From positions 1-37,753 of the forward strand of contig PMJO01000046.1 in NCBI GenBank assembly GCA_003158455.1: 37,753 nt of DNA, in the 5' to 3' direction. Below, piece after piece: positions 34,177 to 36,255 of this stretch (the stretch's first letter is position 1; each line of letters begins with the position of its first letter). Below the pieces are notes generated by a model. It was given only the letters and a program-made list of their open reading frames with translations, had not been told where the DNA came from and did not search any database. The stretch is from Myxococcales bacterium. GTDB taxonomy: Bacteria > Myxococcota_A > Polyangia > Fen-1088. The translations under genes and the position numbers were made by a program.

Positions 34177-36255
34177 GTGAAGATCTACACAGGATGTGAT
34201 CATGCAGGGTTCGCCCTGCGCAATAAGTTGGTCGATCGCATGCGCAACCAGGGCCATGAGGTGGTGGACTTCGGCACCAACTCAGAAGCCGCATGCGACT
34301 ACCCCGAGTTTGCCGCCATGGTGGCCAGCGCCGTGCGCAGCGATGTGGGCTCTGTGGGAGTATTGGTGTGTGCCACCGGGCACGGCACAGCCATCGCGGC
34401 GGGAAAGGTGCGTGGCATCCGGGCTTTTGCCCCCAGCAGCGTCGAGGCCGCGCGGCTCTCGCGTTTCGACAACAACACCAACGTCCTTTGCCTGGGCGGC
34501 CGCATTCTGGCGGAAAGCGATGTCTTCGAGATCGTCGACACCTGGCTGTCCACCGGATTTGCCGGCGGCCGCCATGGGCGCCGCATCGCCAAGATCGCAG
34601 CCATGGAAACCACCGCAGCCCTCAACTTTCTTGTCGAGGGCGAGTACCTGCGTCTGGCCGCCAAGGGCATTCCGGCCAGCCTCTGGGCCAAGGACGCCTC
34701 CGCGTTGGCGCCCGCTTCCGGCGCCGGTGCCTGTATAGGCGACAAACTCGGCTGGCTCAATGCCCCCAACGACATGGAACGTGAATTGGCCGGTATCACA
34801 GTTTTCGCCGAGCAGGTGCGCAAGGCCGGATTCCGACGTGCGGTGCTGCTGGGCATGGGGGGTAGCGCGCTTGCGGCCGAGGTCTTGGCGCGGGTGTTTG
34901 GGCCGGCCGCAGGCTGGCTCAACGTATTTGTGCTCGACTGCACCGATCCAGCGGCGGTGATGGCGGTTGAGACCTCGATTGACCTCGATCGCACCCTGTT
35001 TCTGGTCGCTTCCAAGTCTGGCACTACCCCCGAGGTATGCGCCTTCGAACGCTACTTCTGGGCCAAAGTACTGCGCCGCTGGGCTGGCGACACGAGCAAG
35101 GCCGGCCAGCACTTCGTGGCCATCACTGATGCGGGGACCGAACTCGACAAGCGGGCTGCGGCCAACCACTACCGCTGCGTGTTCAACAACGCGCCTGACA
35201 TCAGTAGCCGCTTCTCCGCGCTGGCCAGCTTTGGTTTGGTCCCGGCGGCACTCATGGGCATGGACATCAGCCGCCTGCTGGCCCGCGCCAAGACCATGGT
35301 TGCCGCCTGCCGGGAAGCCCTCCCGACGCAGAATCCTAGCGTGGCCCTGGGGACTCTCATCGCTGCGCTGGCCACAGTGGGCCGCGACAAGCTGACTTTG
35401 TTTCTGTCCCCCGAGCTGGCGCCTCTCGGCGCCTGGATCGAACAGTTGGTTGCCGGCGCGACCGGCAAGCAAGGACGCGGCATCGTTCCGGTGGAGGGCG
35501 AGCCCCCTGGCGCACCGTCGAGCTACCGTTCCGATCGCCTGTTCATCGTGGTGAGGTTGCGCGGGGGAACGCCACCTGCGCCGGCAGAACAACTGGAAGC
35601 CATCACCACCGCCGGGCATCCAGTCCATGATATCGAGCTGGGCGACAAGTACGATCTGGGCGCCGAATTCTTTCGCTGGGAGTTTGCCACCGCCGTGGCG
35701 GCCAGCCTACTCGAGGTCAATCCCTTTGACGAGCCGGAGACGGTCGAGGCCGGACAAGCCACGACCCGCTTGCTCGAGGGCTATCGCCAGACCGGCCAGC
35801 TTCCCACCCCACCAGGCGTGGTGGCCCCGGCCGATGCAGCCATCGTGAGGCATCTGGCCGCGGCCAAGCCGGGTGACTATCTCGCAATCGCTGCCCTTTT
35901 CCAGCCCACGCCCGAACGCGATCGTCTGCTGGGTGCCATACGGACGCTTTGTCGTGATCGGCTTCGTGTGGCGACCACCATGGGCTATGCGCCGCGCTGC
36001 CTGCACGTCGCCGGGCAACTCCACCAGGGCGGTGCCGGCACCGGCATCTTCCTGCAACTAGGCGCCTCGGTCGTGGCCGACCTGCCGATTCCCGACGAGC
36101 CATTTACCTTCGGTGTCCTGCGCGACGCCCAGGGGCTGGTCTCTCTGGAAGCGCTACGCGCGCGCGGCCGCCGAGTTTTACGGGTCGATTGCGGCCGTGA
36201 TCCCGACGCTGGGCTGGCCACGCTGCTGGAAACCCTGGGCGCCCTCGGCCAGTAG
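34177..36255 (+). CDS. RpiB-like domain fused to a phosphoglucose isomerase domain
   Basis: 692 residues from a GTG start. Residues 1-143 match ribose-5-phosphate isomerase B (GCDHAGFAL, DYPEFA, Cys65 in VCATGHG, GGRHGRRIAKI). However, the E. coli active-site His99 (SRQHND) is Asp here (SRFDNN), and GTGVGMSIAANK is altered to ATGHGTAIAAGK. Residues 165-690 match the isomerase half of the transaldolase/phosphoglucose isomerase proteins: LWAKDASALAP, GMGGSALAAEVL, LFLVASKSGTT, FVAITDAGTELDK, ISSRFSALASFGLVPAALMG, GKQGRGIVPVEGEP, EFFRWEFATA, GQLHQGGAGTGIFLQ. So RpiB occupies the place usually held by transaldolase. Expected to interconvert glucose-6- and fructose-6-phosphate. RpiB activity is uncertain. 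tatD follows by 14 bases. Confidence 0.88.
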   Translation: MKIYTGCDHAGFALRNKLVDRMRNQGHEVVDFGTNSEAACDYPEFAAMVASAVRSDVGSVGVLVCATGHGTAIAAGKVRGIRAFAPSSVEAARLSRFDNNTNVLCLGGRILAESDVFEIVDTWLSTGFAGGRHGRRIAKIAAMETTAALNFLVEGEYLRLAAKGIPASLWAKDASALAPASGAGACIGDKLGWLNAPNDMERELAGITVFAEQVRKAGFRRAVLLGMGGSALAAEVLARVFGPAAGWLNVFVLDCTDPAAVMAVETSIDLDRTLFLVASKSGTTPEVCAFERYFWAKVLRRWAGDTSKAGQHFVAITDAGTELDKRAAANHYRCVFNNAPDISSRFSALASFGLVPAALMGMDISRLLARAKTMVAACREALPTQNPSVALGTLIAALATVGRDKLTLFLSPELAPLGAWIEQLVAGATGKQGRGIVPVEGEPPGAPSSYRSDRLFIVVRLRGGTPPAPAEQLEAITTAGHPVHDIELGDKYDLGAEFFRWEFATAVAASLLEVNPFDEPETVEAGQATTRLLEGYRQTGQLPTPPGVVAPADAAIVRHLAAAKPGDYLAIAALFQPTPERDRLLGAIRTLCRDRLRVATTMGYAPRCLHVAGQLHQGGAGTGIFLQLGASVVADLPIPDEPFTFGVLRDAQGLVSLEALRARGRRVLRVDCGRDPDAGLATLLETLGALGQ

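Follow-up and report, generated by a model that had tools for sequence, protein, structure and literature searches.

An RpiB-phosphoglucose isomerase fusion in a family of Myxococcota, with an altered RpiB site and a probable PGI pseudoenzyme

Introduction

What does a protein do in which a ribose-5-phosphate isomerase B (RpiB) is joined to a phosphoglucose isomerase (PGI) and the ring-opening His of RpiB is replaced by Asp? The question is raised by a gene in the window, the whole stretch of 37,753 nucleotides of a Myxococcales contig that was analysed. A sequence-only reading had proposed that the protein is either a bifunctional link between the pentose phosphate pathway and glycolysis or an RpiB domain turned into a regulatory or sugar-binding module. 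Both domains are known, as are fusions of transaldolase to PGI (TAL/PGI), which are described in the accessible text of two papers (PMC4062416; PMC6191907), and rpiB and pgi_2 are given as nearby genes in Gloeobacter violaceus in the accessible part of a third (PMC13237429). No report of an RpiB-PGI fusion was found in the open-licence papers searched.

Domain architecture and structural model

The gene and its parts are located as follows:

34177..36255, forward strand: RpiB-PGI fusion gene, one open frame with a GTG start, 692 codons (692 aa) and no internal stop
34177..34611, forward strand: RpiB domain, residues 1-145 (PF02502, TIGR01120, AlphaFold2 model with VIA-align; dN/dS 0.053 within the genus)
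34612..34671, forward strand: linker, residues 146-165, mostly within a long predicted helix (131-163)
34672..35826, forward strand: PGI fold of the TAL/PGI type, about residues 166-550 (PRK09533 match; VIA-align Z 32.1)
35827..36252, forward strand: C-terminal domain of TAL/PGI-type PGIs, about residues 551-692, with HVAGQLHQGG replacing HSTGQLHKGG

Pfam analysis confirmed the fusion of RpiB to PGI, with LacAB_rpiB (PF02502) covering residues 3-140 (5.3e-45) and PGI covering residues 221-394 (7.2e-11). These were the only Pfam domains in the protein, and no transaldolase domain was found in front of PGI. Against NCBIfam, the RpiB domain narrowly passed the cut-off of TIGR01120 (rpiB; 140.3 bits, cut-off 138.65), and it also passed that of PRK05571 (RpiB; 158.9 bits, cut-off 135). 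Scores were far below the equivalog cut-offs for lacB (78.1 vs 312.55), lacA (51.3 vs 181.1) and D-erythrulose-4-phosphate isomerase (NF051858; 60 bits vs 240). The LacAB galactose-6-phosphate isomerase (PMC3755991, accessible text) belongs to the same superfamily but differs from the window domain in these scores and in consisting of two gene products.

The isomerase half corresponds to the C-terminal half of TAL/PGI fusions, as had been suggested: positions 390-944 of the 949 in PRK09533 (TAL/PGI) align to residues 148-687 (5.5e-165), including the C-terminal domain. The protein differs from this type in having RpiB instead of transaldolase, in the loss of a Glu and a Lys from the PGI site, and in a score (550.7 bits) below the NCBIfam cut-off of 712. 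In TAL/PGI-type PGIs the C-terminal domain comprises approximately 150 amino acids and carries a GPRxxHSTGQxxKG motif that is invariant in 22 of the 22 rows of our PGI alignment A3. The His of this motif may take the place of the residue that opens the ring in other PGIs.

The AlphaFold2 model of the fusion protein, built from an alignment of 56 rows, had a mean pLDDT of 92.7 and a pTM of 0.85. In VIA-align, residues 1 to about 148 of the model matched the RpiB structures 2bes_A (Z 24.4, rmsd 2.6, 144 aligned) and 3he8_A (Z 23.8), and residues 145-548 matched the PGI structure 3ifs_B (Z 32.1, rmsd 2.9, 387 aligned), the VIA-align rows mostly spanning residues 139-550. Foldseek ranked PGI structures first. 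The structure comparison rules out that the front domain is anything other than RpiB-like, and the profile and structure matches together rule out a chance open reading frame. The stretch from residue 143 to residue 165 contains neither a stop nor a frameshift, and all 10 family relatives that carry the fusion also read through the junction. The linker of the fusions shows a loose alignment with the beginning of the PGI portion in TAL-PGI.

Distribution of the fusion

A survey of the architecture in 18 family genomes, the own genome among them, identified the fusion in 11: seven of the own genus (g1), G267 (g2) and three of a sister genus (g237). The five genomes of genera g3 and g236 carry a TAL-PGI gene, and rpiB lies directly upstream of it in four (it was found in all but G390). 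The fusion was not found in the two other genomes of the survey, G377 and G391. Across 377 genomes of the phylum, with at most three candidates scored per genome, only G000 and G267 span both halves among the matches listed. We also examined 80 of 284 related loci, among which L007-L012 carry the fusion. By contig coordinates these six loci correspond to the records of G386, G387, G383, G388, G385 and G384, and they were counted once. In L013, L048, L066 and L077, rpiB is a separate neighbouring gene.

The frame is open in six of the seven members of the own genus. In G384 (L124, identical to L012) it is broken near residues 417-447; the KamA and DegP matches of L012 are also split between frames, which suggests errors in this contig. 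In the sister genus the RpiB part is kept, most PGI motifs are lost (L128, L131), and the C-terminal domain is gone in both members with a visible stop (G380 and G381). The fusion of G382 (L127) runs to the end of its contig, so that the absence of a C-terminal domain there may reflect the contig edge.

Loss of catalytic residues in the PGI half

The larger change, which was absent from the earlier reading, lies in the PGI half:

35203..35208, forward strand: Ser343-Ser344, replacing the invariant Gly-Gly of GGRYS (each Gly in 36/36 intact PGI rows)
35455..35457, forward strand: Gly427, replacing the catalytic-base Glu of ESTGK (E427G; Glu in 74/74 other loci)
35752..35754, forward strand: Gly526, where Lys is otherwise conserved (the genus has Gly or Arg; Lys in 74/74 other loci)

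Glu427 and Lys526 (the latter in NPFDQPNVxxxK) are both lost in 6 of 6 readable rows of the own genus, namely the window and L007-L011, L012 being omitted for its frame break; both are invariant in the 74 other loci. In a profile of intact relatives, residue 427 aligns with the Glu of ESEGK in solved PGIs, and residue 526 aligns with the Lys of NPFDQPGVEAYK (VEAYK). With this alignment, we take the Glu of ESxGK in the bacterial enzymes to be the equivalent of Glu357 in mouse PGI. In the mouse enzyme, Glu357 acts as the base and ring opening is carried out by His388, and the conserved active-site Lys of PGI is Lys516/518 (PMC9436075, accessible text).

Alignment A1 contains 76 PGI positions that are invariant in 36 intact rows (G384 omitted, frame break). 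Seven of these are replaced in all six rows of the own genus: G343, G344, E427, S428, K526, S611 and A653. Five of the seven lie at most two residues from R345, E427 or K526 (hypergeometric 2.3e-5, with the centres chosen post hoc). Most phosphate-loop residues are kept: K280, S281, R345 and Q423 are present in 6/6 rows and T284 in 5/6. Replacement is far more extensive in the sister genus, where, as far as residue 516, 24 of the 56 invariant positions differ in every row, and the catalytic Glu, Gly in the own genus, has become Ala or Val. The G267 fusion has replacements at none of 26 invariant RpiB positions and at one of the 76 PGI positions (Y574F).

Judging from these residues, the PGI half of the own genus is very probably without isomerase activity. 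With its predicted fold kept, its catalytic residues lost and its sequence under purifying selection, it can be classified as a putative pseudoenzyme.

The active site of the RpiB half

Three changes mark the RpiB half:

34369..34374, forward strand: Cys65 (catalytic-base position, kept) and Ala66 (anion-hole loop), from the alignment
34402..34404, forward strand: Gly76 (Asn in 39/40 Myxococcota RpiBs; Gly in 9/9 aligned altered fusions)
34468..34470, forward strand: Asp98, equivalent to the ring-opening His99 of E. coli (Asp in 9/9 aligned altered fusions)

The comparison used 40 Myxococcota RpiBs chosen among the stronger matches of the fusion protein, which are not a random sample; L225, which is in the wrong frame, and the divergent L221 are the exception rows. 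Position 98 is His in 39 of the 40, the exception being L225, and position 66 is Gly in 38. The alignment confirmed that Cys65 is kept and that Asp98 occupies the His99 position. Of the proposed alteration of the anion-hole loop, the change of Gly66 to Ala was upheld. A change at His69 was rejected as unremarkable, since Gln is found there in 20 of the 40 rows. A66, G76 and D98 are identical in 9/9 aligned altered fusions from both genera. Compared with RpiB as defined by LacAB_rpiB and TIGR01120, the window protein shares the fold and retains Asp8, His9, Cys65, Thr67, Arg132 and Arg136, but it has Asp for His98, Ala for Gly66 and Gly for Asn76, and a PGI is fused to it. Cys65 and Thr67 are kept in 9/9 altered rows. 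Arg132 and Arg136 presumably bind phosphate.

Asp at position 98 is not confined to fusions. It also occurs in the second, separate rpiB of G380, G383, G385 and G386 and in a Chloroflexi gene in L077. The second RpiBs (L139, L140, L141 and L142) read EDDDMNV or EDDNMNV, and that of G380 adjoins a transaldolase match.

Published mutants show how much the ring-opening His contributes to the activity. In the accessible text of PMC4783025, kcat is reduced 26-fold in E. coli RpiB H99N and 10-fold in T. cruzi H102A, with Km unchanged, whereas L. donovani H102N is inactive; catalytic roles are proposed for the equivalents of Cys65 and Thr67. The H96A mutant of LacAB shows a loss of approximately 25-fold (PMC3755991, accessible text). 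In RpiB of Coccidioides immitis, Ser occupies the position of the ring-opening His, and its authors note that the organism has an RpiA as well and suggest substrates with shorter chains (PMC3212906, accessible text). This protein resembles the window protein in the replaced His, the kept Cys and the RpiA in the organism, and differs in having Ser rather than Asp, in changed phosphate-binding residues and in being a separate protein. It offers the closest precedent for a change of substrate, which is itself unproven.

Related genes in the same genomes

A search for separate transaldolase, rpiA and rpiB genes showed that transaldolases, an RpiA and a complete canonical PGI are encoded at other places in the own genome. 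In four of the seven own-genus genomes, own included, the search found no RpiB besides the fused one. All absences reported here derive from incomplete metagenome-assembled genomes (MAGs).

Canonical full-type PGI is encoded in 10 of the 10 genomes with an altered fusion (7/7 of the own genus), and also in G377 and G391; it is in two pieces in G385 and G388, and there are further matches in G383 and G380. It was found in none of the six genomes with an intact PGI half, that is, G267 and the five TAL-PGI genomes. RpiA is present in 9 of the 10 altered-fusion genomes (7/7 of the own genus, with G388 in two pieces, and 2/3 of the sister genus) and was not found in G267, G377 or G391. Its presence does not follow the change in the fusion, because RpiA is also encoded in all five intact TAL-PGI genomes of g3 and g236. 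G6PD was identified in 18/18 family genomes and glucokinase in 16/18 (not found in G380 and G382). Glucokinase lies on other contigs in the own genus. In G391, glucokinase and a separate rpiB are close together (G391:C4:708006-709560), as in a remnant of an ancestral sugar-phosphate cluster without TAL-PGI.

The fusion of G267 (L118:12908-14989) is intact in both halves and is directly followed by glucokinase; its AlphaFold2 model had a pLDDT of 93.9. No canonical PGI, no RpiA and no RpiB beyond the fused one was found in this 97% complete MAG. If the MAG is right, the fusion would be the only isomerase of these families for R5P and G6P in G267, and the cell apparently depends on it. The G267 protein is a candidate single-chain R5P/G6P isomerase and looks like a working two-in-one enzyme. 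It shares architecture, locus and 52% identity with the window protein, but differs in that the checked catalytic positions are present, glucokinase lies behind it and no other PGI, RpiA or RpiB was found.

Selection and divergence

We estimated dN/dS by the Nei-Gojobori method for six genomes (15 pairs) of the own genus and three pairs of the sister genus. For the own genus, dN/dS was 0.165 over the whole protein, indicating purifying selection along the entire chain, and 0.053 for the RpiB part at 95% identity, which is under strong purifying selection. Values were 0.217 for the linker, 0.182 for PGI residues 166-440, 0.167 for 441-540 and 0.232 for the C-terminal domain. The sister genus showed 0.145 for RpiB, 0.335 for residues 166-440 and 0.157 for 441-540. 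As controls, we obtained 0.089-0.114 for canonical PGI in the own genus (6 pairs; G387, G385 and G388 left out), 0.162 for the separate rpiB of g3 (1 pair), and 0.154-0.309 (g3, 3 pairs) and 0.115 (g236, 1 pair) for intact PGI parts.

Within the own genus, the PGI half thus evolves faster than the canonical PGI of these genomes, yet its rate does not exceed that of intact TAL-PGI-type halves (0.12-0.31). Because its dN/dS is within the range of intact halves, the case for loss of PGI function is based on the residues and not on the rate. The two halves contrast more strongly between genera: the window protein is 68-71% identical to the sister-genus fusions in RpiB and 35-39% in PGI, whereas the values for G267 vs G363 are 67% and 59%. 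The RpiB half, with its altered site, appears to be the part under the strongest constraint.

Locus and origin of the fusion

The gene order KamA, DegP, Cls, Xth, fusion, TatD is found in the window, L007-L009, L011 and L012 (L010 is too short for KamA to show). G267 has the same order with glucokinase inserted before TatD. In the sister genus, DegP, Cls and Xth still accompany the fusion (the stretch from G382 stops at this gene), and at E 1e-3 the fetched stretches yielded neither TatD nor the C-terminal domain. Overall, Cls with KamA and/or DegP are neighbours, and Xth lies beside all 11 fusions seen. In G363, KamA and Cls are located upstream of rpiB, TAL-PGI and G6PD. These observations place the fusion and its presumed ancestor at one locus.

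The family shows a gradient from rpiB beside an intact TAL-PGI (two genera), through the intact fusion of G267, to the altered fusions of two genera. The fusion probably originated at this locus when a TAL-PGI gene lost its transaldolase segment, which had separated rpiB from the PGI segment. Both trees unite the ten rows of the own and sister genera, with support of 99/98 for RpiB and 100/99 for PGI (L027 left out of the PGI tree). The stem of this set is 0.58 in the RpiB tree, and the sister genus sits on a branch of 1.38 in the PGI tree. G267 falls outside the set in both trees, in a poorly resolved part. The trees are compatible with a single fusion event, which they do not prove.

Proposed function and alternatives

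The fusion itself, the altered residues, the sets of genes, the synteny and the selection are observed, and the following order of events is inferred. The ancestor would have been a working bifunctional ribose-5-phosphate isomerase B/phosphoglucose isomerase. In the own genus, with canonical PGI and RpiA present, the PGI half would have lost the Glu base and the Lys, and with them its activity, becoming a pseudoenzyme that retains the predicted fold and most phosphate-loop residues. The RpiB half would have fixed G66A, N76G and H98D and then stayed nearly constant, its chemistry presumably surviving. It may now isomerise another sugar phosphate, most likely a compound that reacts with hardly any ring opening or none; a short- or open-chain substrate is our guess. 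The dead PGI half would serve as a dimer scaffold and possibly, again as a guess, as a hexose-phosphate sensor.

We tentatively prefer this reading, in which a changed isomerase is carried by a scaffold of pseudoenzyme PGI, over a silent sensor and over unchanged R5P activity. It is counted against this reading that TIGR01120 still calls the domain rpiB and that Asp98 also occurs in unfused RpiBs. A new role for the RpiB domain, one of the two proposals of the sequence-only reading, is favoured and compatible with the evidence, which as sequence does not separate a catalyst from a sensor.

The first alternative, which we consider unlikely, is that both halves are pseudoenzymes that bind sugar phosphates without chemistry and act as a metabolite sensor or as partner of an enzyme such as canonical PGI or RpiA. 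Changed catalytic residues in both halves, the phosphate-loop residues mostly kept in the own genus, purifying selection on the whole chain and both activities encoded elsewhere in the own genome are all consistent with it. However, Cys65 and Thr67, for which catalytic roles are proposed, are retained in every altered row, and no regulator was recognised by Pfam among the neighbouring genes scanned. A hexose-phosphate sensor is also unlikely as a role common to both genera, because the PGI of the sister genus has lost most phosphate-loop motifs.

Next in order, and about as unlikely, is an RpiB half that is still an ordinary R5P isomerase, through Asp98 or spontaneous ring opening, with PGI as a dead passenger or scaffold. 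Since loss of the ring-opening His need not kill RpiB, as the partly active E. coli and T. cruzi mutants illustrate (PMC4783025, accessible text), plain R5P isomerase activity is conceivable. The other catalytic RpiB positions examined are kept, the TIGR01120 and PRK05571 cut-offs are passed, and the fused domain is the only RpiB found in four own-genus genomes. Against this, RpiA is encoded throughout the own genus, H98D is accompanied by G66A and N76G in identical form in both altered genera, and a slow enzyme that is also redundant would hardly be expected to be so strongly conserved.

Two further possibilities can be given little credence. That the own-genus protein is still a bifunctional RpiB/PGI enzyme, the other earlier proposal, agrees with the fold being predicted intact and with the role suggested for G267, where the sites are intact and which the proposal fits well; in the own genus it is contradicted by loss of the Glu base (the base in mouse PGI; PMC9436075, accessible text) and the Lys from every readable row and by canonical PGI in all seven genomes, and the own genome also encodes an RpiA and transaldolases. 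Equally improbable is a decaying gene or an assembly artefact, to which the G384 frame break and the early ends of two sister-genus members could point, given the open frame in the six other own-genus members, window included, the dN/dS of 0.165, the apparently poor quality of the L012 contig and a third-position GC of 0.763, similar to the 0.78-0.79 of the neighbouring genes.

Returning to the changed isomerase, a more specific version holds that the RpiB half is a new isomerase gated by a dead, hexose-phosphate-binding PGI half, and that a G267-type ancestor carried all R5P and G6P isomerase activity of its cell. This version is speculative and we regard it as doubtful. If true, an enzyme that once belonged to glycolysis would have become a sensor of that pathway and would control a new reaction within the same polypeptide.

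Within a single bacterial family, the whole course seems to be represented, from separate genes through an intact fusion to a pair of altered descendants, of which that of the own genus has a finely edited PGI site and that of the sister genus a mostly eroded PGI. The family could serve as a natural series for how a bifunctional enzyme turns in part into a pseudoenzyme, and for the role of Asp at the RpiB ring-opening position. For annotation, the case is a warning: profile models still label the front domain as ribose-5-phosphate isomerase B, and the Pfam PGI family is assigned to a half in which PGI activity is very probably missing.

Other features of the locus

A promoter scan gave no promoter-like sites (0.4 expected) and six terminator-like sites (3.0 expected). 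A special link of the fusion to the DNA repair nucleases Xth and TatD was considered and rejected, as both also adjoin the intact G267 fusion and their adjacency is independent of the change. The KamA-family radical SAM protein encoded at 28900-30291 (reverse strand) of the window scores well below the cut-offs for lysine, glutamate and arginine 2,3-aminomutases. Its gene adjoins one for a TPR/zincin protein, and the pair is found side by side in five of the six loci L007-L012, the stretch of L010 being too short.
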